Source: a virus
DNA length: 27,455 nucleotides
Strand: one strand, 5' to 3'
IMG/VR virus record: IMGVR_UViG_3300009076_000035
Location: 1 to 27,455 of that record
Position numbers and translations under genes: made by a program. The notes under the pieces were generated by a model. The model ran no database searches, was not told the DNA's origin, and was given only the letters and a program-made list of their open reading frames with translations. Below, in pieces: positions 1,896 to 21,453 of this stretch. Position 1 is the first letter of the stretch. The number at the start of each line of letters is the position of its first letter.

Positions 1896-4853
1896 GTGAA
1901 TACATTAGATTTTTTAAAGAGGGTATGCCCAGATCGGGATGCGATTGTAGTAACCCAATACAATAATAATAAAAACATTTTTTGGAACAGAGAAGTATTT
2001 ACTTACGCGGAGCTGGACGATGCCGCTGCTAACATGGCGCTTTGGGATAAGAACCCAGAGGCTACAATTTATTACAGTGTTGGCGCATTCGCTGACAACA
2101 TAGTTACTACGGATGAAGGCAAACAAAAGATTCGCCGTACCCAAGATAAAGCTACTTTCTTTAAGAGCTTATGCTTTGACCTAGACTGTGGTGGCGACAA
2201 GCCATATAAGACGCAGCGTGATGGACTCATTAAGCTGGCGGAAGTAGTCAAAGAATTAAAGTTGCCGAAGCCGTTGATCGTGTCATCTGGTATCGGTGCC
2301 CATGTATATTGGGTGCTGGACAAGTGCATATCTAAGCAGCAGTGGGTACAGGTGTCTAAGGCACTGAGTGCCGCACTAGCTTCCAAAGGCTTGGAGATTG
2401 ATAACTCTAAGATACACGATCCGTCTATGGTTCTGCGCCCAGTTGGCACGTTCCACAAGAAAACTTCAGACTGGAAAGAAGTTAAGGTGTTGCTCGACGA
2501 CGGCGTAGAACACGATGTGTTGCTGTTGGCAGGTAAGCTAACTGAGTGGATGGATACAACTCCACAACGCCCTGACCGGCCCCAGCGTAAGCGTAGTGCG
2601 ATGCTAGACGCGGTGCTCAACGAAGGCAACGACTTGGACATAGATTCCATAGCGGAACACTGTCAGCAGGTCAGGGCTATCGTAGAGAGCGGCGGAGTTA
2701 CCAACGCAGCGGGCGACCCAGTAGAAGAGCCACTATGGCGTGCGTCACTAGGGCTGGCTAAGTTCACGCCTGACCCAGAGCAAACTATCATACGTATCGC
2801 TGGCCAACACCCAGAGTTTGATCTAGAAAAGAATATGGAAAAGCTGGAGGGCTGGAATGCTACTGGCCCGACTACTTGCGCTACGTTCGCTTTGCATTGC
2901 CCCAAGGGTTGTGAGGCTTGCCCATACCAAGGCAAGAAGACTTCTCCGGCGCAGCTTAGTAGCACTGACGTGCAGGTTGTTGTAGTACAAGACGAATCAG
3001 GTGAAGATCAAGAAGTAGAGATTCCAATGCCTGAAGGCTACGTAATGCGTAGAGATCAAATCTACCATGAGATCGTAGTTAAAGACGAAGATGGAAACGA
3101 GACTAAAGATTGGGAGCTTACGAGCACTTACCCGATGTATATTGTATCAATATACTTTAGTCCTGAAGACCGGCAGACGTCGTTTACTTTGGCAATTAAA
3201 AAGCCACTTATAGGCTGGGAGCAGAACGACCACTTAGCAGCAGTGCTATCAAGTGCTGGCAAAGAGTTCTCTGGGTTCCTACTAGACAATCAGATATTTG
3301 GTTTGAAGTCGCTCAACCAACAAGAAAAAGTTAGAGGGTATCTTATGGACTACTTGCAAATGGTTCAGAGCCAAGTAGCTACCGGCTATGACTATAAGTC
3401 ATTCGGCTGGCAGAAAGACGGCTCGTTTATATGCGGGCAGCAGATCATTAACCCGCCGAACAACGCAACATCACGTCGTATTGTTGGCAACGCTGAGAGA
3501 TACAAGGAGCGCATCGTAGTCCAAGGCACCCGCGAGAAGTTCGTAGAGGCTATGGATATGCTGAACCTAGCAGGTACACAGGTGATCAGGACGTGTGCGC
3601 TTATCGCTACTACGGGTATCATCGCCAAACAAATGGGTATGGGCAGTAGCATTGTTTCTGTCTACTCAACGGACACGACAACTGGTAAAACGCTGTCGCT
3701 GCTTACTGTTAACAGCATGTTTGGTAACCCTCGCAGTCTTATACAAGGTAGGAACGACACTACAAACGCTATCTATGGTATGCGCGGCACGCTGAACAAC
3801 TTGCCTATGGCGATTGATGAGATCACCATGGCTGACGAGCATCAAGTAGCACAGATGGCTTACTCATTCAGTGAAGGGCAAGAGAAGACCACCATGACTC
3901 CCGGTCGCGATATTCGTCACCCTGCTGTGTGGGATGGCCCTACGTTTATGACTACGAACACTTCACTGATGAGCAAGTTCGATCAGGTGAAGCAAGAGTC
4001 CGAGCCATTGCGAGTCCGAGCGTTTGAGGTTCCACAGAACGATAGAACATTTGTATCTCTACGTGACGACAGTGGTGGCAAGGTGGCAAGTAACTACGCA
4101 GACCTACTGCTAGAGAACCACGGCTGGGCTTTCCCTGAGTTAGTGCAGGCAGTAGTCCACTTGGGTGGCCCCAAAGAAGTAGCGGCTAAAGGGCACGCAG
4201 ACTTCCACAAGACGTTTGGCTTTGACTTCGCCCCGCAGGAAAGGTTCTACGAGTCGATGATCAAGTCTGCTTGGACGATGGGTAAGATAGGTAGCAAGCT
4301 AGGCCTGTTCCCATTCGACGTTAAAGGCACGATAGAGTTTATGTTAGAGACTGTTACGAAGCTCCGCAAAGATACTGTGGATGCCAAGGTAGACGCTATT
4401 GATGTTATTGGCCAGTTTATGCAGCAGTACAACGACCAGATCATCGAAGTCACTCAGCCTTATGGTAAAGGCGGAAAGCCTATGGTTAGAGAGCCTGCCC
4501 CTCTCAAAGCCGTTATGCGAACGCAGTATGTGTACGATGCGAACAACCCGATTATGCCCGGCTCTACTTTGGCTATTAACAGGGCTGTGTTTAAGAAGTT
4601 CGTCAAGGAGAATAACGACGCAGAAGACCGCGTACTCCGTGAGCTGCAAAACATGGGTGCCTTGGTAGACTCCAACGCTAGAGTAACTATGTTCAAGAAT
4701 TGCAGAGGTAGAAACCCCGGTCAGGCGTGGTGTATACTTGTTAACCTAAACCACCCTAGGTTCATTGACTCTTTGTCTGGGGCGGACTTTAAGAAACAAA
4801 GTTCAGTGTCGTTGGCACTGCTTAACGGCTTACAGGATGCTTCCAATGGCTAA
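1896..4853 (+). CDS. Primase-helicase (AEP-like primase fused to DUF927-like helicase)
   Basis: The protein has 985 residues with a GTG start at 1896, preceded by GAGG at 1885-1888. The N-terminal part carries the three signatures of archaeo-eukaryotic-type primases: D95-x-D97 in CFDLDCGG, an S-G-x-G-x-H-x-Y-W segment with H136, and R181 in LRPVGTFHKK. A Cys cluster (C328, C335, C339, C342) follows and probably binds zinc. The C-terminal half is an ATPase: the Walker A region ends in TTTGKT (G597, K598, T599) and Walker B is MAIDEI (D641, E642). This resembles the helicase part of DUF927 and phage replication proteins. It would prime and unwind DNA at the replication fork. The glycine that usually opens the P-loop is absent (STDTTTGKT), though the GKT core is kept. 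The last codons overlap the HNH gene. Confidence 0.85.
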   Translation: MNTLDFLKRVCPDRDAIVVTQYNNNKNIFWNREVFTYAELDDAAANMALWDKNPEATIYYSVGAFADNIVTTDEGKQKIRRTQDKATFFKSLCFDLDCGGDKPYKTQRDGLIKLAEVVKELKLPKPLIVSSGIGAHVYWVLDKCISKQQWVQVSKALSAALASKGLEIDNSKIHDPSMVLRPVGTFHKKTSDWKEVKVLLDDGVEHDVLLLAGKLTEWMDTTPQRPDRPQRKRSAMLDAVLNEGNDLDIDSIAEHCQQVRAIVESGGVTNAAGDPVEEPLWRASLGLAKFTPDPEQTIIRIAGQHPEFDLEKNMEKLEGWNATGPTTCATFALHCPKGCEACPYQGKKTSPAQLSSTDVQVVVVQDESGEDQEVEIPMPEGYVMRRDQIYHEIVVKDEDGNETKDWELTSTYPMYIVSIYFSPEDRQTSFTLAIKKPLIGWEQNDHLAAVLSSAGKEFSGFLLDNQIFGLKSLNQQEKVRGYLMDYLQMVQSQVATGYDYKSFGWQKDGSFICGQQIINPPNNATSRRIVGNAERYKERIVVQGTREKFVEAMDMLNLAGTQVIRTCALIATTGIIAKQMGMGSSIVSVYSTDTTTGKTLSLLTVNSMFGNPRSLIQGRNDTTNAIYGMRGTLNNLPMAIDEITMADEHQVAQMAYSFSEGQEKTTMTPGRDIRHPAVWDGPTFMTTNTSLMSKFDQVKQESEPLRVRAFEVPQNDRTFVSLRDDSGGKVASNYADLLLENHGWAFPELVQAVVHLGGPKEVAAKGHADFHKTFGFDFAPQERFYESMIKSAWTMGKIGSKLGLFPFDVKGTIEFMLETVTKLRKDTVDAKVDAIDVIGQFMQQYNDQIIEVTQPYGKGGKPMVREPAPLKAVMRTQYVYDANNPIMPGSTLAINRAVFKKFVKENNDAEDRVLRELQNMGALVDSNARVTMFKNCRGRNPGQAWCILVNLNHPRFIDSLSGADFKKQSSVSLALLNGLQDASNG

Positions 4854-5106
4854 GAAACCTAGAGACTACAGGGCTGAGTACGACAAGTACCAAGGTACTG
4901 CTGAGCAAAAGAAGAACCGAGCTAAGCGCAACGCTGCTAACAAGGCGATGCGCGATGCTGGCAAAATCAAGAAGGGTGATGGCAATGATGTCGATCACAA
5001 GAAGCCGCTATCAAAAGGCGGCTCTAATAGTAAAAGTAATCTAGCGGTTAAGCCTAAGTCTAAGAACCGCTCGTTTGCTAGAACGAAAACCGGGAAACAT
5101 AAATAA
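4846..5106 (+). CDS. Small HNH-like endonuclease
   Basis: The protein has 86 residues from ATG 4846, overlapping the primase-helicase end by 8 bases; an ATG at 4837 is an alternative. The N-terminal 50 residues are basic and helical. The core reads DVDHKKPLSKGGSNSKSNL and is followed by a conserved NRS. This matches the short phage HNH layout, in which the D-H pair provides metal ligand and general base and N-x-x-x-N-L closes the beta-beta-alpha-metal fold. Such small HNH proteins can nick DNA during recombination or packaging. Here it sits at the end of the replication block, whereas packaging HNH genes usually lie beside terminase. Its target is unknown, and it could also be a degenerate homing-type nuclease. 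Confidence 0.75.
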   Translation: MAKKPRDYRAEYDKYQGTAEQKKNRAKRNAANKAMRDAGKIKKGDGNDVDHKKPLSKGGSNSKSNLAVKPKSKNRSFARTKTGKHK

Positions 5107-5122
5107 ATTTTTGGAGTTAACT

Positions 5123-5503
5123 ATGAAACTTAAGGTAACTATAGCGACAATAGCTATGACTGTAATACTTTCATCTACAAGCAACGCTGCCTGTACTTAT
5201 CGAACGGATAGCTGGGGCAATACTAATTATACTTGTGACGCCGGCAATGGCGGCACTTTACGCACCGACTCTTGGGGTAATACTCGGGATAGCGGCACCG
5301 GCCTTACTTACAGGAAAGATTCTTGGGGCAATACAAAAGCAAGTGACGGCACGATTTACCGAACTGACTCTTGGGGAAACACCAGAGGCAGTGACGGTAC
5401 AACTGCAAGGAAAGATTCTTGGGGTAATACTGTTATCACTGGCAAAAACGGCAGCAGAACAACCTGCCGCACCGACTCTTGGGGTAATACCCGCTGCAAT
5501 TAG
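5123..5503 (+). CDS. Exported protein with six DSWGNT repeats
   Basis: The protein has 126 residues from ATG 5123, with GGAG at 5113-5116. In-frame codons back to 5075 overlap the HNH gene and lack a binding site. The first 23 residues are a typical Sec signal: a lysine pair, a hydrophobic core (IATIAMTVIL), then SSTSNA, with cleavage likely after the NA. The mature protein is almost wholly made of six D-S-W-G-N-T units, each preceded by R-T or R-K and spaced 16-20 residues apart. Cysteine pairs bracket the first and last units and could form disulfides in the periplasm. Gram-negative bacteria carry similar repeat proteins of unknown role, which I recall only in general terms. It is probably an accessory gene, and no enzyme motif is present. 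Confidence 0.85.
   Translation: MKLKVTIATIAMTVILSSTSNAACTYRTDSWGNTNYTCDAGNGGTLRTDSWGNTRDSGTGLTYRKDSWGNTKASDGTIYRTDSWGNTRGSDGTTARKDSWGNTVITGKNGSRTTCRTDSWGNTRCN
5207..5491 (+). repeat. Six imperfect tandem repeats coding DSWGNT
   Basis: Copies begin at 5207, 5267, 5318, 5366, 5414 and 5474, giving spacings of 60, 51, 48, 48 and 60 bases, all multiples of three. The shared core codes Asp-Ser-Trp-Gly-Asn-Thr, with synonymous differences between copies. The array is therefore old or kept by selection on the protein. Confidence 0.9.
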
Positions 5504-5545: not shown

Positions 5546-6022
5546 ATGAAACTAACAGATAAAGAAATCCTAGACTTTGTAAAAGAAAACATAACAATAG
5601 TTAAAGACATGACAGGGCATATCGAAATAAAAGAAGTGCGCTGCTCCATTATTGGCGATGTTAATGGCCGTGTTATTGGCAATGTTAATGGCGATGTTAT
5701 TGGCAATGTTGGTGGCGATGTTTATGGCAATGTTTATGGCGATGTTTATAGGCATGTTCGTGGTAATGTTGGTGGCAATGTTTGTGGCGATGTTGGTTGC
5801 AATGTTGTTGGTAATGTTGGTGGCAATGTTTGTGGAAATGTTAATGGCGATGTTGCTTGCGATGTTGGTGGCAATGTTTATGGGCATGTTCGTGGTAATA
5901 TTTACGGCGAAAAGATGCTAGAGGAGGAAGAGTTACTTGATTGCTATATTACAAGCTACATTATTCCTCCCGAAACTGATGCTGCTGGCAATGTTGGCCC
6001 ACAAATAAAAGGTGTAAGCTAA
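5546..6022 (+). CDS. Tetrapeptide-repeat protein, probably beta-helical
   Basis: The protein has 158 residues from ATG 5546, with GGAG at 5532-5535. Residues 1-35 form a charged helical cap (KLTDKEILDFVKENI). Residues 36-119 are 21 uninterrupted units of the form x-G-[N/D]-V (IGDV, NGRV, IGNV, NGDV and so on) with no insertion. A regular glycine and valine every four residues suggests a stacked beta solenoid, reminiscent of the G-x-V-x-G runs of bactofilins. A short acidic C-terminal segment (EKMLEEEELLD) follows. Four cysteines lie inside the repeats. There is no signal peptide, so it is presumably cytoplasmic or in the virion. Its stop overlaps the next start (TAATG). The function is unknown. 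Confidence 0.8.
   Translation: MKLTDKEILDFVKENITIVKDMTGHIEIKEVRCSIIGDVNGRVIGNVNGDVIGNVGGDVYGNVYGDVYRHVRGNVGGNVCGDVGCNVVGNVGGNVCGNVNGDVACDVGGNVYGHVRGNIYGEKMLEEEELLDCYITSYIIPPETDAAGNVGPQIKGVS
5651..5902 (+). repeat. 21 tandem 12-bp repeats coding x-G-[N/D]-V
   Basis: 252 bases made of exactly 21 twelve-base units close to NNTGGCRATGTT. There is no length variation. All frames of this tract stay open because the unit contains no stop in any phase, which explains the long open frames on both strands here. Confidence 0.92.
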
Positions 6023-7124: not shown

Positions 7125-10100
7125 TTATTCCTCTAGCTTATAAAGTTCGTTTAGCTTGTCATATAAATCTGCTTGCAATTCCTGCATCGCAGCATTCATA
7201 CCTTCGTAGTCCGGGTTACCGCTACGGGTTTCTTCCCTTTTTATGCGATTCATAGCCTCACCAAAAGCGCGGGTTAACTGACTGCTTTCATACGACTTAG
7301 ACAACATCTCTTGCTGTACATTGTACCCGTCAATCTTAAGTCCTAGTATGTTGCCTATTAATAATCTAGCGACATCCTGTTTCCTGCCAGCAAAGTTGGT
7401 ATTGCCCTGAATAGCGTCTATGCTTTTTTCTATGTTGCTAGTTCTTAGCCAAGGTGGCGTAGCTACATTGAGCAGCTGCTCCCCTACGGTCATAACGTTA
7501 TCAAAGCTAGAGTCAGTCTCTTTGTATAGTTTCTCGCCTGTAAACGCGTCAACTCCACCAATGGAAGCGACGACAGCAGTTATAAACGGCCCGCCCGGTT
7601 GTAATCCTTGTGGCCACCAATCTATGCCCATAAATCCATTGTTAGTCGGCAGTCCTTTAACAGTAGAAGCCAAAGGTATGTAATCACCTAGCTTATAGTA
7701 CACAGGGTTGTTGTCGTCGCCAAAAGGCAAACGGATGTATGTGCGTAATCCGGGGATACCAAACACGTTCTCGTCAAGTTTAGCAGGGCCGCGACGGCGT
7801 TCTTCCTCATCGTCTCCTACTAGTGCAGACGCTGCCATATCAATCATGGCGTATCCTGCTAGAAGGTTTACAACTTTCCAAGGCTGGTGCAGAACAATGC
7901 GGCCCAGCACAGGAGTAATAGCGTACGTCCAAGACACAAACGGTAACCAAGATTGCCGCGCAGCTTTTACTGACTTAGAATCAATGTCATAGTCTAGGAA
8001 GTCTGTGCGCGCTCTACGACCGGCTGCCTGAAGCATCTCGTCTGTAACTACCCCATCGGTAGATAGGCTCTTAGAGTCGCCGACGTGCTTGATAAAAGAA
8101 GCGAGTCGGAACGCGTTATCTTCCGCCGCGTACAACTGGGTAGCTACGTCGTCGGTGTCTACTAGTTTCTTACCTAGCTTCCGCGTCAGCCTAGCTGCCA
8201 TGTTCCCTTTCTCAGCTTCAAAGTTTATAAAGGCAGTAACGCGGGTCATGGCGGACTCGTTGCCGTCAATCAGTAGGTTGTTTTCCGCGTTCTCAGCAAG
8301 CTCACGTTTTACTTCTACACTTGAGTAGTTGCCCAACATAGCGCCAGAACTCATAAAGACTTTCATCATCGCTAGTTCGTCAGGGGTTAAGGGCTTACCT
8401 TTGCCCGTCTCATATCTTGCCATTAGGCTAGCGGCTCTACCTAGAGTTTTTAACGGTATGTCGTGCAGCATTAGCAAAGTCACGTTGGACGCTATGTTAG
8501 TGACGTGTGTTCCGGGGTTGTAGATAGTCTTAGACTTCTTAAACGCTCGCAGCGCTTGGTTATAGCCCTCTACGTTAACAAGGGGGTTACGGTCGCTCAT
8601 ATCGTGCATAGCAGCGAAAACGGGGCCATGCACAATCTTACCCGCCATGTCACCATACTGCTCAATGTCTTGTGGGTATTGCACGAACTGGCCGCGCAAA
8701 CGTATTTTATCACCTAGCTGAGAAGCTTGAGCTACGCTAGCAGGTAAGCTCTGCCCGTCACCAGTTCCTATTTTCCCTGCAAACTCTGGGTAAGTAGCTA
8801 GTATGTCTTCTACAGTGTCAAACACTTGGCCAGACTCTTTACCTTGTATGGCCATAGCCTTCATAAAGTTCTGAGTAGCGTAGAAACTAGCTACGCCACC
8901 AACAGTGTTGCGCATAGCGTTAGTTATTGCGGATACTTTACGGGCATCCAAATTATCTTTGTAGTTGTTGTCCTGCGTGAAACGATAGTTGCCGCTGCTA
9001 CCGTCGTACTTCTTCATAGAGTACTCGCCTTCTTGCACCGACACGTTGACCTGCGCTCCCGCAGTGCTCATTTGTCCGTCTTGCAAGTCGTGCTTAGTCT
9101 TGCTGACCATAGTAGCGTAGCCGGGAGTGCCGTTTGTTGGGGTTACAGTGGCTTTATAAAAAGTTTCCCCGTCTAGAACTACGTCACCATTAGCGTCCGT
9201 CATTAGCAAATCGCTGTCTGATACTATGTCCACTTCCAGTGATACACCTTGCTTGCTTAGCTGTCTGCCAAGGGCAGTCATAGTCATAGCGTGGCTAGAT
9301 ATAGTTGACTGGTCGCTCACGTAGATTAACTTCTTAGTGAAGTCTTTGCCCGCAAACTCATCTTGAATAGACTGAGGTAAGCCTTTTATCATGCTGTCCA
9401 TTGTGTCTCGAACAATGTCCGCTTCTATCTTCAGGCGGTCGCCGTTAACCACGCCATCGAACGCAGTGGTATCGCCATCTAAGTAGGAGAAAATAGCCTG
9501 CTGCGTAGCAGTGTCACCTTTCTCAATGGAGCGCACAAGACGCTCTAGGTTCATATAGATTGTGTTCCGTTGCTCTTTATACGTTTTAAAGTAAGTAGTC
9601 AGAGACTCAGGAATCTGGAAATGCGCCGCCCACTTGGACATATACGCAGCGACCTTTGGCAGCTTCTTAGCTATTATTTCTTTCCTAGCTTCTATACTGC
9701 TAGCAATAGCTTCAGCTCTCGCAGGCCAGTTCTTACCGAAAAGAAAGCGGCTAGTAAAAGCATCGTATAAGCCGTCTTTAGCTTTAGTCGAAGAGAATAA
9801 ATCTCCTACAGGTTTGCCTGCGCTGTCTAAAGTAGCCACGTCGTTAAATTCAGACATGAACAGCTTAGCGCCGCCGACTGGTCTTATGTCAGCAAGGTTG
9901 TCCGTAGTCCGGGCCTTCTCTAATAGTGATAAAGAGTTCAAGACAACCCGCTCCGCTTCACCTTTGCCCGTAAGGAACGTCTGCACTAAACGAATAATGG
10001 TTTTGAACGCTGCGGTGAGTTGGTCGAACCAAGGCTGCGTAGCCGCAGAAGGGCTAGGATCAATCTCAGCTATAAGCTGACGGAAATCTCGCAGGGTAGA

Positions 10101-13100
10101 GCCGTAGGATATTAACTCCAAAGCGGCGTCGAGTGGGTTACCTTCGTTACGTAGTTGTTCTAACTTACCAATAACAGCTAACGCTTTGTCTTTATGGTCT
10201 TGGGGCATAGCTACGTCTTGGAACGCCTGTGTCTTGGAGAACGCAATTATGTTGTCCACAGATTTTTGCAAGTCTACTACGCTAGCTTCGGTAGGATTGT
10301 TGTACACATACCCCTGTAGCACCGAGTGCAACGCCTCGTGCAGTACTTGTTCTTGAGAAGCGTCGCGGTTCAGGTATACAGTATTAGTGTTGGGGTCAAA
10401 CTGCGGCCCAGTTACGTCGTTATCTACACCAACAAACTCAACTTGAACTGGGGCTTTGCCCTCATTCATTCGCTCTAGAACGTCACGGATACTTCTGCCT
10501 AGGGTAACAGCATAAGGACTAGGCTTGCCTTTCCAGCTAGACACTCTTTCTAGTACAGCGCTGAGTACGTCTTTGCCATCTTCTTTTGCTTCCGCCACTG
10601 TGGCTTCGAGCGGCGTAGGCTTGCCTTTCTTCATTTCAGCTTTGTTACCACGCGTAACAGTGCCGGACACGACATCTTTCTGGCCTAGCGTTCCGTCTTT
10701 ATACTGGCTAAACGCGGTGGATATTAGTGAGTCTATACTAGTATTTACTTTGCCTGCGCTGACAAAATTGTAGCCCGGAGTGAAGATAGCGCTAATTTTC
10801 TTGCGCATCGGGGCTTCTTTAATACTTGTCTTAGCGTTAGTCTCTTGGTCTACTTTAAGAGCACCTAAGATAGCGGACAAGTCTTTATCGCTCATTCCGC
10901 CAGCAGACGGGTTAAGCAGCTTTTTGAATGTGGCTTCTAAATCTCTTATCGCTTTGTTGTACTTAGCCTGCGGCCCTTCGCCTGCGGCTTTACGTTGCTT
11001 AGACGTGGTAGTAACACCGCCCACTGTAGACGTAACTCGCTTGTCTAGGTTACCAGCTTGGTTATTAGCAATAGTCGCATACTTAACAACGTCCAAGAGC
11101 ATCTTGTGGATACCCTTCATTTGCTCGCTGTTTGCAGCGGTAGCTTCTTTGTTAACGTACTCTGGGTCTGTAGCAGACTTACCAGCGTTGCCTATTCTAG
11201 GGGCAGGGTATAGGGCAGGGTGGCGGAGCATTATCGCAATCGCTTTGTGAACGCCGTCAGCCAAAGTCGGCGCGCCAGTAGCCTCGCCGGTAGTAGAATC
11301 CACTTCAGACTTTAGGATGTTTCTTATCTCTACGTCCATAACTGCGGAGTCTTGCTCGGTTACAACGACGGACTCAAGCTCAGCTTGTTCAGCAGCGGAC
11401 ATCTCAGAGTCTATTTGATCCTGTGTCTGAGATACTTCTTCTACAGGTGCAGTATTTGTTTCCCGCGCTAGAGGTGACGCCTGTGTTTCTTCAACAGGGT
11501 CTACGACTACGTCCTCGAACAGGTCACTTTGTATCTCTGGTTCGGCTTTGTTAGACACGGTTAAATCTGTTTCACCCTGAACTTCTACCGCTGCTTCTTT
11601 AGGCGCAACTTGCTCGTATACGTTAGGGTCGCCCTCTTGCAGTGCAGCTAACTGGCGCTCTGTAATTTCACCTGTGAGCGTCGCTTCACCTTTATCGTTT
11701 ACCGATATAACTTTTAGTGCATTTTTGAAGTCTGCCAGCTTTTCTCTTGCTACAGCAGCTTCGGCTGCGCCGTTAACTTGTTCCGCAGTGTCTGCGATTT
11801 GCTCGTCGAGAACACGAATCTTTTCAGCTTTGTTTAGCGCCATAGCTTCGCGTAGTTTTTTAGCTCTGCGCTCAGATGGTTTTGTTTTCTCTTGCTCAAA
11901 AAGGTTATCTGCTTGCACGCCTGCCCTAGTACGCTGCAACATTTCTAGTCGCTGGGCTAAAACTTTCTTTTGACCACGCTTTATATTGCCAAACTTAGCA
12001 ACGGTAGCTTTTAAGGAAGCAGCGAAATCTTGTTGCGGCCCAGTAGCGAAGTCAAAAGAAAATTGGTCTTCGTCTAGTACAGGCGCTTGCTCTGCTTGCT
12101 CTGCTGTCTGTTCGATGGAACCTATGTTCTGCGGCGCGCCAGCCTCGTCATACTGCCCAGCTAGTGGGTCGTTAAGGTCTAAGTTTTGTTGAAACTCTGG
12201 TTGCCGTTCTTGTACAGGAGTGGGGGCATTGCCCGCCAAGTCTGTCTCTCCCAGTACGTTAGTTTCTACTTTCTTAGGTGCGTCTATTCTTCGTTGCCCA
12301 ATAGCAGATACAGCACCGCTCATAGAGCCGCCTGTTAATCCACCAGCTACAGCGGCGTTAAGGAATCCAGAGCGCATTTCTTCAGCGGTAGCAGTGCCGT
12401 CAATGCCAAACTCCATACCCGTTTGTGCCACTTCAGTAGCAGCTTCTGTTACAGAGCCTACAGCGCCAGCTTTACCAAACCTAGAAACCGCGCCACCTGT
12501 GTATCCGCCAGTCTTAAGTCTAGCTACGCCAGTAAGCGCAGCAGGCACAGCCGCTTCAGCTAAGCCGTAAGGAACAGCGCCGAGTAATGCCTTCCAAGGA
12601 TCAGGGTCACCATCAGCAGCGGAGGATTCATATAGAGAGCCAAAGCCAAGGCCAGTACCTACCATAGTAGACTTAGCTAGTGCCTCACCTTGTGCGAGTG
12701 CTTGCTTGCGAGCTGCGAAACTAGCACCTTGCTGAACGCCACCACCACCTAAAGCTCTAGGGGCTATAGCCGCTAACCTAGTTAAGCCAGCAGCGGTGCC
12801 AGCCTGACCTAAGCCCGGAAGTGCCTGCGCTGCCATTACAGTGCCCATAATAGGCAACTGCTTACCGATCTGGTACTGCGCGTAGTCTATATAGTCACCT
12901 ACGCCTTCTAAGTCTTCTACGCGATCTAATCCGGGCTTGCCCGCTAGATACGACTCATAACCTTGTCGTTCCGCTTGGCCACGCAAGTACTCAGAAGTGT
13001 CTTCCGCGCCTACAATGTCTGCTATACCAGCGGCAGCACTTGTACCAAGCATCTGCACTACGTCTACGCCAGAAGAAATACCCGCAGCCAACTCACCACG

Positions 13101-13253
13101 GTCACGGCCTGTAGACACGCCAAAGTATTCCGCAACGTCCTGCGCGTCTTTGCCTACCTGCTGGCTGTAATCTACTACTAGCTCCGCATCGGAAGCCCCT
13201 TTCATTCTAGCAGGAGCTATAGCCCGCAGTTGTTCTAAACTAAATATAGACAT
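7125..13253 (-). CDS. Giant internal virion-type protein with HExxH motif
   Basis: This 2042-residue protein starts at ATG 13253. The N-terminal 80 residues are helical and charged. A Gly/Ala-rich hydrophobic stretch (about 80-330, with PIMGTVMAAQALPGLG) could insert into membrane. Acidic Glu/Gln-rich linkers follow (about 390-650). A zincin-like motif lies at H972-E973-A-L-H976 in EQVLHEALHSVL. The C-terminal part holds FVSWTYAITPVLGRIVLHQP near residues 1770-1790 and resembles domains of large polyvalent phage proteins (LPD38-like). Proteins of this size and place in podoviruses are ejected with the DNA and build a channel across the envelope, as T7 gp16 does. I saw no lytic transglycosylase motif. 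The ejection role is inferred; the peptidase is a candidate. Confidence 0.75.
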   Translation of the reverse strand: MSIFSLEQLRAIAPARMKGASDAELVVDYSQQVGKDAQDVAEYFGVSTGRDRGELAAGISSGVDVVQMLGTSAAAGIADIVGAEDTSEYLRGQAERQGYESYLAGKPGLDRVEDLEGVGDYIDYAQYQIGKQLPIMGTVMAAQALPGLGQAGTAAGLTRLAAIAPRALGGGGVQQGASFAARKQALAQGEALAKSTMVGTGLGFGSLYESSAADGDPDPWKALLGAVPYGLAEAAVPAALTGVARLKTGGYTGGAVSRFGKAGAVGSVTEAATEVAQTGMEFGIDGTATAEEMRSGFLNAAVAGGLTGGSMSGAVSAIGQRRIDAPKKVETNVLGETDLAGNAPTPVQERQPEFQQNLDLNDPLAGQYDEAGAPQNIGSIEQTAEQAEQAPVLDEDQFSFDFATGPQQDFAASLKATVAKFGNIKRGQKKVLAQRLEMLQRTRAGVQADNLFEQEKTKPSERRAKKLREAMALNKAEKIRVLDEQIADTAEQVNGAAEAAVAREKLADFKNALKVISVNDKGEATLTGEITERQLAALQEGDPNVYEQVAPKEAAVEVQGETDLTVSNKAEPEIQSDLFEDVVVDPVEETQASPLARETNTAPVEEVSQTQDQIDSEMSAAEQAELESVVVTEQDSAVMDVEIRNILKSEVDSTTGEATGAPTLADGVHKAIAIMLRHPALYPAPRIGNAGKSATDPEYVNKEATAANSEQMKGIHKMLLDVVKYATIANNQAGNLDKRVTSTVGGVTTTSKQRKAAGEGPQAKYNKAIRDLEATFKKLLNPSAGGMSDKDLSAILGALKVDQETNAKTSIKEAPMRKKISAIFTPGYNFVSAGKVNTSIDSLISTAFSQYKDGTLGQKDVVSGTVTRGNKAEMKKGKPTPLEATVAEAKEDGKDVLSAVLERVSSWKGKPSPYAVTLGRSIRDVLERMNEGKAPVQVEFVGVDNDVTGPQFDPNTNTVYLNRDASQEQVLHEALHSVLQGYVYNNPTEASVVDLQKSVDNIIAFSKTQAFQDVAMPQDHKDKALAVIGKLEQLRNEGNPLDAALELISYGSTLRDFRQLIAEIDPSPSAATQPWFDQLTAAFKTIIRLVQTFLTGKGEAERVVLNSLSLLEKARTTDNLADIRPVGGAKLFMSEFNDVATLDSAGKPVGDLFSSTKAKDGLYDAFTSRFLFGKNWPARAEAIASSIEARKEIIAKKLPKVAAYMSKWAAHFQIPESLTTYFKTYKEQRNTIYMNLERLVRSIEKGDTATQQAIFSYLDGDTTAFDGVVNGDRLKIEADIVRDTMDSMIKGLPQSIQDEFAGKDFTKKLIYVSDQSTISSHAMTMTALGRQLSKQGVSLEVDIVSDSDLLMTDANGDVVLDGETFYKATVTPTNGTPGYATMVSKTKHDLQDGQMSTAGAQVNVSVQEGEYSMKKYDGSSGNYRFTQDNNYKDNLDARKVSAITNAMRNTVGGVASFYATQNFMKAMAIQGKESGQVFDTVEDILATYPEFAGKIGTGDGQSLPASVAQASQLGDKIRLRGQFVQYPQDIEQYGDMAGKIVHGPVFAAMHDMSDRNPLVNVEGYNQALRAFKKSKTIYNPGTHVTNIASNVTLLMLHDIPLKTLGRAASLMARYETGKGKPLTPDELAMMKVFMSSGAMLGNYSSVEVKRELAENAENNLLIDGNESAMTRVTAFINFEAEKGNMAARLTRKLGKKLVDTDDVATQLYAAEDNAFRLASFIKHVGDSKSLSTDGVVTDEMLQAAGRRARTDFLDYDIDSKSVKAARQSWLPFVSWTYAITPVLGRIVLHQPWKVVNLLAGYAMIDMAASALVGDDEEERRRGPAKLDENVFGIPGLRTYIRLPFGDDNNPVYYKLGDYIPLASTVKGLPTNNGFMGIDWWPQGLQPGGPFITAVVASIGGVDAFTGEKLYKETDSSFDNVMTVGEQLLNVATPPWLRTSNIEKSIDAIQGNTNFAGRKQDVARLLIGNILGLKIDGYNVQQEMLSKSYESSQLTRAFGEAMNRIKREETRSGNPDYEGMNAAMQELQADLYDKLNELYKLEE

Positions 13254-17663: not shown

Positions 17664-18055
17664 AAGGCTTTACCAACAACATAAACGTTATATGTCTCTG
17701 TGCGGGCGTCAAGGAATGAGCACGGCCTAGGGTCACCGAATATGGTGTAACATCCAGAGTTGTTAGTGAAGCTAATAACCCCTGCGGAAACATACGCTTT
17801 AGCGAAACTACCACCGTTGTCGAACAGGCTAAACCCCGCAGGGATTTCCTGTATTATATAGTTATCATCTAAGTCCTGCTGGGAAGTAACTCCGGGCAAG
17901 CTGTATTGAATAGAAGACGGATAAGTACTGCCACTAGCGGAACCCGGCTGCAACGTTATACTGACCGTATCTATCTTAATTAACGAGTTAACTATCTGAC
18001 TAGTGTCTATTATAGTTTCACCGTATTCGTCGAACTGCTGGAAGCCATAGCTCAT
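17660..18055 (-). CDS. Short tail-tip protein, related by N-terminus to the following fibre protein
   Basis: The protein has 131 residues; its start shares one base with the stop of the giant fibre gene. It begins MSYGFQQFDEYGETIIDTSQ, matching the MSYG-x-x-x-x-[D/Y]-x-G-x-x-x-[F/I] start of the downstream protein, so the two are probably duplicated N-terminal domains with different bodies. Short phage tail proteins annotated as DUF6453 start in the same way, from memory. Beta-rich composition with a Cys pair (CYTIFGDPRPC) suggests a compact domain. It probably decorates or caps the fibre. No function is proven. Confidence 0.65.
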   Translation of the reverse strand: MSYGFQQFDEYGETIIDTSQIVNSLIKIDTVSITLQPGSASGSTYPSSIQYSLPGVTSQQDLDDNYIIQEIPAGFSLFDNGGSFAKAYVSAGVISFTNNSGCYTIFGDPRPCSFLDARTETYNVYVVGKAL

Positions 18056-21000
18056 TACGCAAGATTCCCTAGCTTAACCCTAAGTGTGTTAGCCGAGTCG
18101 TAGACTTTAATTACGCCTGCTTCTATCTCCATACGCTCTCCGGTGGTCGCGCTCTTAATAGCAAACGAAGGTGAAACGCCCGCGAGCGTTACTTGGCTGG
18201 CATCTATTGTACCAGCGGTTATCTTGCTTGCACCGAGGTCTTGTATCTGCGCGCTAGTTATAGTCGCGATCTTAGCGTCTAGAGACCCAGTGGATATACG
18301 GTCTGCGGATATAAAGCCTGCGGTTATTTTGTCAGCGTTTAGTGAGCCTACCTTAGCGTTAGTAACAGCTAAGTCACTGATCTGTGCAGTGTCGATAGCG
18401 GCTACGCCGATCTGTGCAGTGCCGATAGCACCGTTCTTAAGAAACGCTTGGTCTATGTAAACACCAGCAGGCACGCTAACACCATTGAGTGTAGTAGTCG
18501 CGGTAGTAACTACGAACGGTATTACCTCGCTGCCAGAAGAAGACGCAATAGCAAACCTATCTGCTGACACGATAAACTCAGAGAACGGCGTGCCGTTAAC
18601 CAGCGTACTCGCTAAGCCGAAACCCGACACGTATCCGTTATTGTCTACTTTAACTGTGTACTGCGCAGACAAACCATTTATAGACTCCGCCGCTGTCTCT
18701 ACGGCAGAAGTGTTTTCTCCGACTGTGGTGGACAGAGCGCTCACATCACTGGCGGTTGAAGTAACCACGCCATCTATGGCAGAAACATCAGTGGTTAGGG
18801 TGTTTATATTTGTTGTGTGCCCCGCGACTGTCGAGTCGGTAGCAGCAAGCCCGGCGGTTAGCCCGCTTATGGACGTGCCTTGAGAACTTATAGTGCCTTC
18901 CGCGCTTGAAACGCGAGTATCTACGGCGTCGAGGGCGGTGCTAGTAGCAGCTATGGTACCCTCCGCAGTGGTCAAGGAATTTTGTAGTGCCGTAACAGCG
19001 CTGCTCGTGCTGGTTATAGTGCCTTCCGCTGCGGTTGTTCGTGTGTCTAGCGCCGTTACGGCGTTGGCGTTGGCTGTAGTTTCCCCATCTAGCGTCGTAA
19101 CACTGTTTTCTAGGGCAGTGATGTCCTGCTGCGCGGAGGTTATGTTTGTGGTGTTTATTCCTACTGCGCTAGTTAGTGACGAAACCGCTGAACCAGTAGC
19201 TAGACGGGCAGTGCCGTCTGCGTTAAATACTTCACCTTCTAGAGAAGTGATGTCCTGCTGCACAGTATCTATGTCACTGCCGTTGGTTGTAACTACGTTT
19301 GTTAGGTTAGTTAGCGCCGCGCCGGTAGCTAGACGAGCAGTGCCATCGGCGTTAAACACTTCACCTTCTAGGGAAGTAATGTCAGTTTGCGCGGTGCCAA
19401 TACTAGTGCCCTGCGTAGTTACTGTGTTAGACAGCGTGGTGACAGCGGAGCCAGTAGCAAGGCGAGCAGTCCCATCGGCGTTAAACACCTCTCCTTCCAA
19501 GTCGGTTATGTCCGACTGCGCAGTGCCAATACTAGTACCCTGCGTAGTTACTGTGGTAGATAGCGTGCTAAGTGCCGCGCCAGTAGCTAGGCGAGCAGTG
19601 CCATCACCGTTAAACACTTCACCTTCAAGGGCGGTTACATCAGATTGTATTGTGCCTATTAGCGCACCCTGCGTCGTAGCCGTGCTCTCTAAGGTATCTA
19701 TATCGGAACCTTGCGTTACTACGGTACTCGATAACGTACTGACCGCTGTACCAGTAGCGAGACGCGCAGTGCCATCGGCGTTAAACACCTCTCCTTCGAG
19801 TGAGGTAACGTCAGTCTGCAACGACCCGATTGTTGTGCCGTTAGTTGTAACTGTGTTGGTCAGCGTGCTCAGGGCGGAGCCAGTAGCTAAGCGAGCAGTG
19901 CCATCGGCGTTAAACACCTCTCCTTCGAGTGAGGTAACGTCAGTCTGCAACGTACCAATGCTATCACCTTGAGTAGTTACGGTGTTTGTCAATGTGCTGA
20001 CCGCTGCGCCAGTAGCTAAGCGGGCAGAGCCATCCGCGTTAAACACTTCACCTTCAAGCTCAGTAACGTCAACCTGTATCGCCACTATTGTAAGGCCATC
20101 ACTAGCCACTGTGTTAGACAGCGTACTGAGTGCCGCGCCAGTAGCTAAGCGGGCGGTGCCATCGCCGTTAAACACTTCACCTTCTAAGTCGGTTATGTCC
20201 GACTGAGCGGAAACTATTGTAGTGCCTTGGGTCGCAACAGTGCTCGATAACGCGCTAACCGCTGTACCAGTAGCTAAGCGGGCAGTGCCATCTGCATTAA
20301 ATACTTCACCTTCTAACGCAGTAACGTCTGACTGAATAGAAACAACAGTGCCGCCCAGCGCCACAACAGTGGTATCTAGCGTGTTGAGTGCGGTGCCTGT
20401 TGCAAGGCGACTAGTCCCGTCGCCATTAAAAACCTCCGCGTTTAAGGCAGTGACATGTATTTCGTTGGCCGCAACACGAGGGTCGTCTAAGGCGACCCAT
20501 GTAAGGCCTGAGCCTTGGTCGATGTACGCATATACTTTGTTGTTGTCATCACTATCATACCAACGACTAAACTCCGCTATGGTTCCTGTCGGAGCCGAAG
20601 CCTGCACAAAAACCGATGTAGAACCCGATACTAAATCCGCAATAGCGCTTTGGATGTTGGATACGTTAGTATTTAGCGTCGTAACCTCGCCGTCTATCGT
20701 ATTTACTGTACTGCTGAGCGAAGATACAGACGAGTTTATGTTAACTACAGACGCGTCTACAGTACCTAATCTTGTTACTAAGTTGTCGCCTGTGTATGAG
20801 CTTACATACCCAGTGTATGTTTCGAGCAGAGCTACTAAGTCTATCTCGTCCGACAAAGCTGTGGCAAGTTGCCCTTGTGTAATAGAGTCAGTAAGAGTAT
20901 CAAGCAAAAAAGCTATGTCCGGCGCGGTAGTTGCAAGTAACCCAGACACGGCGTTGAACGGCCCAGTAGTGCCTTGTGTGTTAACGTTTCTCGCCCAGTA

Positions 21001-21453
21001 GTATCTACCTTTGCCGCCGCCTATCTGGTCAGTGGTAACACTACCACCCGCTGTATCTAGCAGAGCTGCGGTCGAGAGGTTATCGAGCGACGACGGTAGT
21101 ACGTAATCCGGGTCGGTGTCAGGCAGTAACGTGTCATACGTAGCGGACGCCCACACTTCTGTGTACGCGTGGTTGGGGTAGCTGATGTTATCCCAAGTCA
21201 ATATGACATTGCTAAACGCCCCTGCCGCCGATAAGTTTGTTACTACAGGAGGAGTAGCTAGCGCTGGCCCGTCCAGTATGGGAGTACCTTTGTTGTCTAT
21301 TAGGCCGAATGCCTCTAAGTCCGCCCGAGTCATTACCGTGCGTGAGCCTGCACCATCAAGAACACCGCGCAGCCGGTCTAAAAATATGCGGAGGTCACGC
21401 GGTATATCCGAAGTTATAGCGGGCAGTGCCGTGCTAGGTTTAGACATTGGCAA
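18055..21453 (-). CDS. Giant tail fibre with ten 43-residue coiled-coil-type repeats
   Basis: The protein has 1132 residues and starts at ATG 21453, with GGAGGAG seven bases upstream; its first 14 bases overlap the nozzle gene. Residues 1-60 are the presumed attachment part, and a fibronectin III-like domain follows (about 65-165, with FSNVILTWDNISYPNHAYTE). A long heptad-like Ser/Thr/Val region leads into ten repeats (about residues 336-780) built on LEGEVFNADGTARLATG. Then comes a coiled-coil run of T-S-S-x-V-T-A-L units. The C-terminus has ADKITAGFISADRI and SKITAGTIDA units and ends as lambda gpJ-type fibres do. It is probably a trimeric receptor-binding fibre or tail-tip protein. Confidence 0.82.
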   Translation of the reverse strand: MPMSKPSTALPAITSDIPRDLRIFLDRLRGVLDGAGSRTVMTRADLEAFGLIDNKGTPILDGPALATPPVVTNLSAAGAFSNVILTWDNISYPNHAYTEVWASATYDTLLPDTDPDYVLPSSLDNLSTAALLDTAGGSVTTDQIGGGKGRYYWARNVNTQGTTGPFNAVSGLLATTAPDIAFLLDTLTDSITQGQLATALSDEIDLVALLETYTGYVSSYTGDNLVTRLGTVDASVVNINSSVSSLSSTVNTIDGEVTTLNTNVSNIQSAIADLVSGSTSVFVQASAPTGTIAEFSRWYDSDDNNKVYAYIDQGSGLTWVALDDPRVAANEIHVTALNAEVFNGDGTSRLATGTALNTLDTTVVALGGTVVSIQSDVTALEGEVFNADGTARLATGTAVSALSSTVATQGTTIVSAQSDITDLEGEVFNGDGTARLATGAALSTLSNTVASDGLTIVAIQVDVTELEGEVFNADGSARLATGAAVSTLTNTVTTQGDSIGTLQTDVTSLEGEVFNADGTARLATGSALSTLTNTVTTNGTTIGSLQTDVTSLEGEVFNADGTARLATGTAVSTLSSTVVTQGSDIDTLESTATTQGALIGTIQSDVTALEGEVFNGDGTARLATGAALSTLSTTVTTQGTSIGTAQSDITDLEGEVFNADGTARLATGSAVTTLSNTVTTQGTSIGTAQTDITSLEGEVFNADGTARLATGAALTNLTNVVTTNGSDIDTVQQDITSLEGEVFNADGTARLATGSAVSSLTSAVGINTTNITSAQQDITALENSVTTLDGETTANANAVTALDTRTTAAEGTITSTSSAVTALQNSLTTAEGTIAATSTALDAVDTRVSSAEGTISSQGTSISGLTAGLAATDSTVAGHTTNINTLTTDVSAIDGVVTSTASDVSALSTTVGENTSAVETAAESINGLSAQYTVKVDNNGYVSGFGLASTLVNGTPFSEFIVSADRFAIASSSGSEVIPFVVTTATTTLNGVSVPAGVYIDQAFLKNGAIGTAQIGVAAIDTAQISDLAVTNAKVGSLNADKITAGFISADRISTGSLDAKIATITSAQIQDLGASKITAGTIDASQVTLAGVSPSFAIKSATTGERMEIEAGVIKVYDSANTLRVKLGNLA
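19112..20447 (-). repeat. Ten tandem 129-bp repeats in the tail fibre gene
   Basis: Each unit codes 43 residues that start LEGEVFN[A/G]DG[T/S]ARLATG and end in a 26-residue heptad-like stretch. Copy six is 14 residues longer, from an internal duplication of the heptad part. Two adjacent copies (around 19772 and 19901) are nearly identical over more than 40 bases, which suggests recent expansion or gene conversion. Confidence 0.9.

Follow-up and report, generated by a model that had tools for sequence, protein, structure and literature searches.

A phage-carried gene encodes a putative exported six-hairpin protein of an apparently undescribed repeat family

Results

Gene content of the locus

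The window, that is, the whole stretch of DNA analysed, is a virus record of 27,455 bp. On its plus strand a helicase fragment, a DUF927 primase-like gene and an HNH gene are followed by the DSWGNT gene (5123-5503), which begins 16 bp past the HNH-like gene (4846-5106), and the minus strand carries tail, virion, lysozyme (PF00959) and holin (PF11351) genes (Table 1). The next gene on the plus strand (5546-6022) encodes a 158-aa protein that consists mostly of a GNVxGDVx repeat (a 12/24/48-bp tandem array), with a weak PHROG similarity to a family of baseplate hub/tail lysozymes (phrog_430); a tblastn comparison with phage records gave no match. On the minus strand, a 1132-aa fibre-like protein (18055-21453) contains 43-aa (129-bp) tandem repeats with LEGEVFNADGTARLATG, and a 2042-aa protein (7125-13253), probably an internal virion protein, was without a match at E 1e-10 among the 50,697 phage records searched.

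Table 1. Coordinates of the DSWGNT gene, its elements and the genes upstream of it in the window
Feature	Position	Strand	Basis or remark
DUF927 / primase-helicase-like gene, replication block	1896..4853	+	profile matches
HNH-endonuclease-like gene, directly upstream	4846..5106	+	Pfam HNH 3.5e-4, just below curated cut-off; PHROG 4590 4e-21
Ribosome-binding site (RBS) GGAG	5113..5116	+	6 nt upstream of ATG 5123
Exported-protein gene (export predicted), 126-aa product	5123..5503	+	stop codon included; ORF and homologues
Signal peptide, residues 1-22	5123..5188	+	predicted signal peptidase I cleavage, after SNA and before A
Mature domain (residues 23-126), 12 strands paired in six hairpins	5189..5500	+	AlphaFold2 prediction
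Cys24...Cys38, inferred disulfide staple, hairpin 1	5192..5236	+	symmetric about Trp31
DSWGNT unit 1	5207..5224	+	sequence
DSWGNT unit 2	5267..5284	+	sequence
DSWGNT unit 3	5318..5335	+	sequence
DSWGNT unit 4	5366..5383	+	sequence
DSWGNT unit 5	5414..5431	+	sequence
Cys115...Cys125, inferred disulfide staple, hairpin 6	5465..5497	+	symmetric about Trp120
DSWGNT unit 6	5474..5491	+	sequence

The product of the DSWGNT gene consists of a signal peptide, MKLKVTIATIAMTVILSSTSNA, and, past the predicted cleavage, a mature domain of 104 residues that begins with ACTYRTDSWGNTNYTC and ends with CRTDSWGNTRCN. The signal combines a basic n-region and a hydrophobic core with a signal peptidase I site of the AxA type (S-N-A followed by A). 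Six DSWGNT units, all exact, are found at residues 29, 49, 66, 82, 98 and 118, and there are four cysteines in all, Cys24/Cys38 and Cys115/Cys125. A first-pass annotation had described a Sec signal, six DSWGNT units and terminal Cys pairs, all of which are confirmed in the sequence, with export itself predicted from the signal. As the same architecture recurs in relatives from phages, plasmids and genomes (37-83% overall identity), the ORF is not a product of chance, and a real gene with a six-unit product is confirmed.

The same annotation could name no function for the repeat family, and a name is indeed lacking in Pfam, PHROGs, NCBIfam and PADLOC, in none of which the window protein had a significant match. 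PADLOC defence models likewise matched none of 44 members, and no paper on a DSWGNT-type motif was found in the literature.

Distribution and genomic setting of the family

A search of bacterial and phage genomes for the repeat, as the first-pass annotation had proposed, returned relatives in phages, plasmids and, rarely, bacterial genomes: six phage records (including Yersinia phage fHe-Yen8-01, Enterobacter phage phiT5282EW and Pantoea phages LIET2 and Nafs113), 9 plasmid records, 64 uncultivated-virus loci and 25 bacterial genome loci. The gene is thus carried by phages, as first described, but is not specific to them. The smallest plasmid carrier is an 8.7-kb plasmid of Acinetobacter lwoffii; related 12-15-kb plasmids with relatives come from Escherichia, Enterobacter, Serratia, Yersinia and Klebsiella, and further plasmid carriers from Aeromonas and Alteromonas. 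The 12-15-kb plasmids of these five Enterobacterales genera (L022, L023 and L024) have in common the family gene, a recombinase and a set of proteins most of which are hypothetical; in Pfam, little was matched by ten neighbour proteins of Yersinia plasmid pYe4449-2, with no hint of function.

All named bacterial hosts of the family are Pseudomonadota. Besides the centre genome, a relative was present in 1 of 368 Gammaproteobacteria sampled (a partial match) and in 1 of 288 Alphaproteobacteria sampled. The alphaproteobacterial member (L111), detected with a profile instead of the motif, likewise has six units, all with Phe, and both Cys pairs. The family is apparently undescribed and common to phages, plasmids and some bacteria. 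In a Methylophilus MAG, a small, putatively exported protein with three YQTDSFGNKQYHK-like units (L050, 2305-2595, minus strand) is encoded 3.4 kb from a DSFGTT gene; its match to the family profile is weak (E 2.5e-5), and from its sequence it may represent a cousin family.

Outside the window's lineage, the family gene is located beside DNA polymerase A and a PD-(D/E)XK nuclease, or beside helicase/clamp/methylase genes. In one phage group it lies a few genes ahead of terminase and portal, so the replication-block setting is not universal. Within a lineage the neighbours are conserved, and none recurs across the whole family; the copies on the chromosomes of three Vibrio species are flanked by the same genes. 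Between matching neighbours, the related phages fHe-Yen8-01 and phiT5282EW carry strongly different variants (L017 5004-5381 and L019 4953-5291), which suggests that the gene is exchanged as a cassette. The description of the locus as lytic-type agrees with a 33-kb record that encodes the identical protein and has no phage integrase. An integrase is present in two other carrier records, and temperate phages therefore also carry the family gene.

A virion-associated protein whose export is merely incidental would accord with a phage-encoded gene and with the hairpin repeats contained in phage fibres. Such a role is highly improbable, given the clear signal peptide, the members on plasmids and chromosomes, and the fHe-Yen8-01 record, in which several products are labelled 'particle associated' but the homologue only 'hypothetical protein'.

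Signal, export and N-terminal variants

By a check of composition and pattern, a strong hydrophobic core is present in 66 of 69 family N-termini and an AxA-like site in 68 of them, and we infer that the window protein is exported via Sec. A bacterial lipoprotein was ruled out, as the cleavage site of the window protein (S-N-A-A-C) has no lipobox ([LVI][ASTVI][GAS]C); a lipobox-like string occurs in 2 of 69 relatives, within the hydrophobic core.

Short signals are found in the window, plasmid and bacterial members. In many uncultivated-phage members, an RBS-supported start lies 27-48 residues farther upstream and puts a cytoplasmic stretch (for example, DKIKEAHATADRLL) ahead of the hydrophobic segment, and a stretch resembling this extension is part of a 76-aa protein whose gene adjoins the family gene in another group. 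To judge from the sequence, the extension could serve for membrane anchoring in those phages. An EAxATADxxL-type motif was also noted both in the 76-aa neighbour protein, which has a C-terminal hydrophobic segment (L088, 716-946), and as the added cytoplasmic part of DSWGNT proteins from other phages (L008, 2914-3021), as if two modules were joined or split.

These variants, namely a cytoplasmic segment with a membrane-spanning stretch in many phage members and a similar segment in an adjacent protein, together with the predicted export, would suit a periplasmic factor that times or regulates lysis, such as an antiholin-like partner. Such a function is nevertheless improbable: the lysozyme and holin genes of the window are about 20 kb away on the opposite strand, and plasmid and chromosomal members have no adjoining lysis genes.

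Three regularities of the repeat region

Over 70 complete distinct sequences, regularities were counted in unit number, cysteines and turn residue. Exactly six units are present in all 70, the sole exception being a sequence cut by a contig end. Tandem repeat arrays usually change copy number readily, so a count that is always six points to a structure tolerating no other number. The linkers between units are 10 to 15 residues long and often alternate (GSDGSTY / DNxGNSW, or spacings of 20, 16, 20, 16 and 20), which suggests that the proteins may be built from three double units.

The Cys pairs of the repeat region flank the first and the last unit only, and none occurs as a half-pair (70 of 70); both pairs are present in 62 proteins, the last only in 6, the first only in 1 and neither in 1. 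Each pair of the window protein has a Trp (Trp31 and Trp120) exactly at its centre, which is the geometry required for a disulfide across a two-stranded hairpin and thus argues for intra-hairpin disulfides; that the cysteines of a pair are gained or lost jointly supports pairing inside each terminal hairpin. The Cys pairs seen earlier at both ends belong to the first and last hairpins and thus probably staple these rather than closing the chain.

In 66 of 70 proteins the six units share one turn residue X (D-S-X-G), which is Trp, Phe or Leu, and the four mixed sets are YWWWWW (twice), FFFFLF and FWFFFF. Clustering at 75% identity gave 18 clusters, all uniform in turn residue (10 Phe, 5 Leu and 3 Trp), and identity of the turn residue is 0.98 within a protein as against 0.38 between proteins. 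On a maximum-likelihood tree with the turn residue masked, in which columns are few and many forks are open, the set as a whole has to switch at least seven times; the exact number is soft, although bootstrap counts per state are similar. Each of the six turn positions taken alone requires six to eight changes on the same tree. Codon identity of the motif, at 0.35-0.56 within a gene, is about as low as that between genes (0.21-0.50), and such differences between units of one gene argue against recent homogenisation of the units at the DNA level.

Uniform turn residues might also be a product of gene conversion or re-expansion of the array instead of structural constraint, as tandem repeats are prone to conversion and one close phage pair differs at five of the six turn residues (FWFFFF in L077 versus YWWWWW in L082/L083). 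We consider this unlikely, for synonymous codons are scrambled within genes (for example, Vibrio Leu CTA TTG TTG TTA CTG CTT), Ser codons are divided between AGY and TCN within genes, and re-expansion would permit a change in unit number, which never occurs. We conclude from these sequence patterns that selection keeps the six turn residues alike, for which mutual contact or one shared partner would be the simplest explanation; the six residues probably work together.

Predicted fold and comparison with known repeats

With the mature alignment (A3, 44 sequences) as input, AlphaFold2 predicted six hairpins made up of 12 short strands (mean pLDDT 87.2, pTM 0.64), and the same picture was obtained with the signal peptide included. 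A Foldseek search of the mature model against the PDB gave no match at E 0.001 or better, and the nearest among the listed matches (the CPAP TCP domain, OspA mutants, Rhs proteins, beta-trefoils and a designed protein) were all below TM 0.5. Fold prediction, also proposed in the first-pass annotation, has thus yielded six hairpins and no confident match among solved structures.

The best Foldseek E-values (0.011 to 0.04) were those of the eukaryotic CPAP/SAS-4 TCP domain, at a TM-score of only 0.26-0.28. This domain is a freestanding beta-meander of antiparallel strands and type I turns without a hydrophobic core, and binds a proline-rich peptide (PMC3776556). In contrast to what is predicted for the window protein, it has about 20 strands and neither signal nor disulfides, and there is no sequence kinship; we regard it as a helpful analogy rather than as a homologue. 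The highest TM-score among the listed PDB matches (0.48, probability 1.00) was that of the de novo designed protein ZZ4 (PDB 9lx4), with an rmsd of 7.0 and an E-value of 0.03, which is a design and not a natural family. A predicted phage protein, A0A8S5LE51 (Podoviridae sp. ct4s49; its name 'YfaZ' is an automatic label), reached TM 0.50, probability 1.00 and E-value 2.9e-3, with 20% identity over 131 columns, and from this comparison of models is possibly a remote relative.

The LURP-one/tubby barrel 1zxu (TM 0.52 with the signal-helix model) was dropped, as it was absent from the 50 matches shown for the mature model. A beta-trefoil lectin, with 12 strands and threefold symmetry, was rejected because trefoil matches in Foldseek had a TM of only 0.20-0.29, yet the alternating linkers of some members hint at three double units, so that the predicted model may conceivably be wrong.

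Sequence comparison with the PDB gave nothing significant: the E-value was 0.019 for the DUF903 lipoprotein 5cai and no better than 0.16 for Rhs proteins. The YD / RHS repeats (PF05593, TIGR01643) are hairpin repeats with a D-x-x-G-[NR] turn that resembles the turn of the family, and the RHS repeat model scored 24.3 bits in member L028 (cut-off 22 bits) and 19.8 in member L017, with no match to the window protein at E<=1 (Pfam). YD arrays, however, are long, variable in number and build large shells, whereas the family always has six units in about 100 residues and putative terminal disulfides. A long RHS-type array that forms a shell enclosing a toxin or core domain was rejected for the 126-aa, six-unit window protein, every relative of which is small. 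Choline- or cell-wall-binding repeats (PF01473-type) were rejected as well, with no Pfam match in the window protein or the members, and scattered weak matches of members other than the RHS repeat (T6SS_Vgr, Nucleoporin_FG, LPXTH substance) were treated as compositional. Taken jointly, the hairpin fold, the disulfides and export are very probable, and far safer than any claim of function.

Discussion

Tentatively, the window protein may be a phage-carried, Sec-exported member of a six-hairpin family that acts as an early periplasmic accessory against competitors. The mature 104-residue domain would consist of six consecutive beta-hairpins, with the turn of each at D-S-X-G-[NT], and hairpins 1 and 6 would each be stapled by a disulfide of their own. 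The six turn residues (Trp in the window protein) would come together in a single surface or cluster, and this would account both for a unit number fixed at six and for a residue type conserved as a set. Probably made alongside the replication genes, the protein would reach the periplasm or cell surface by export and might there, at a guess, bind a component of the envelope or of an invading phage and shield the infected cell from competitors.

Both the binding partner and the role in superinfection exclusion are guesses. Receptor masking and superinfection exclusion, which the first-pass annotation had put forward, are hypotheses with indirect support from the position of the gene in the replication block and from its presence in phages and plasmids. 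The preference for exclusion draws on this presence, on the location among replication genes, away from those for lysis and virion, and on the predicted export of a disulfide-stapled protein, features which resemble T4 Spackle, an early, signal-bearing, disulfide-containing periplasmic protein that causes superinfection exclusion (PMC7677548). Spackle is also small when mature, but it is alpha-helical and unrelated in sequence, and the analogy is a functional one only. The long cytoplasmic N-terminus of several phage members is unaccounted for by an exported exclusion protein, and the Vibrio chromosomal copies with the same neighbours make a purely phage-competition role a misfit for some members.

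Nearly as likely as a superinfection-exclusion accessory, though itself doubtful, is an envelope or secreted protein that benefits the host (by surface attachment, carbohydrate or peptide binding, or stress protection) and is cargo of mobile elements. It would suit the small plasmids, including the Acinetobacter one, which also carries toxin-antitoxin genes, and the stable neighbours of the Vibrio copies; furthermore, the repeated aromatic or aliphatic turn residues could make a binding ladder, and the LytA choline-binding domain and actinohivin are among the weak fold matches. However, the occurrence is very patchy, at one further genome (a partial match) among 368 sampled Gammaproteobacteria and one among 288 sampled Alphaproteobacteria; moreover, several phages, like the window, place the gene among replication genes, and no lectin or wall-binding family model matches.

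For the exclusion accessory, an example of a target, by analogy with the TCP domain, would be a proline-rich periplasmic protein such as TonB. That a compact six-hairpin fold with an obligate Trp, Phe or Leu set acts as an exported binder excluding competing phages or elements is, when put together in full, a long shot.

Of all phage accessory genes, those for small exported proteins are some of the least understood. The occurrence of this family in several phage lineages, on plasmids and on chromosomes makes it probable that its members are of general use in Gram-negative envelopes. Its fixed six units, with switching among all-Trp, all-Phe and all-Leu sets, are unusual among tandem repeats, which commonly vary in number, and the rule that the residues are kept as a set offers a sharp handle for structure work on the family.
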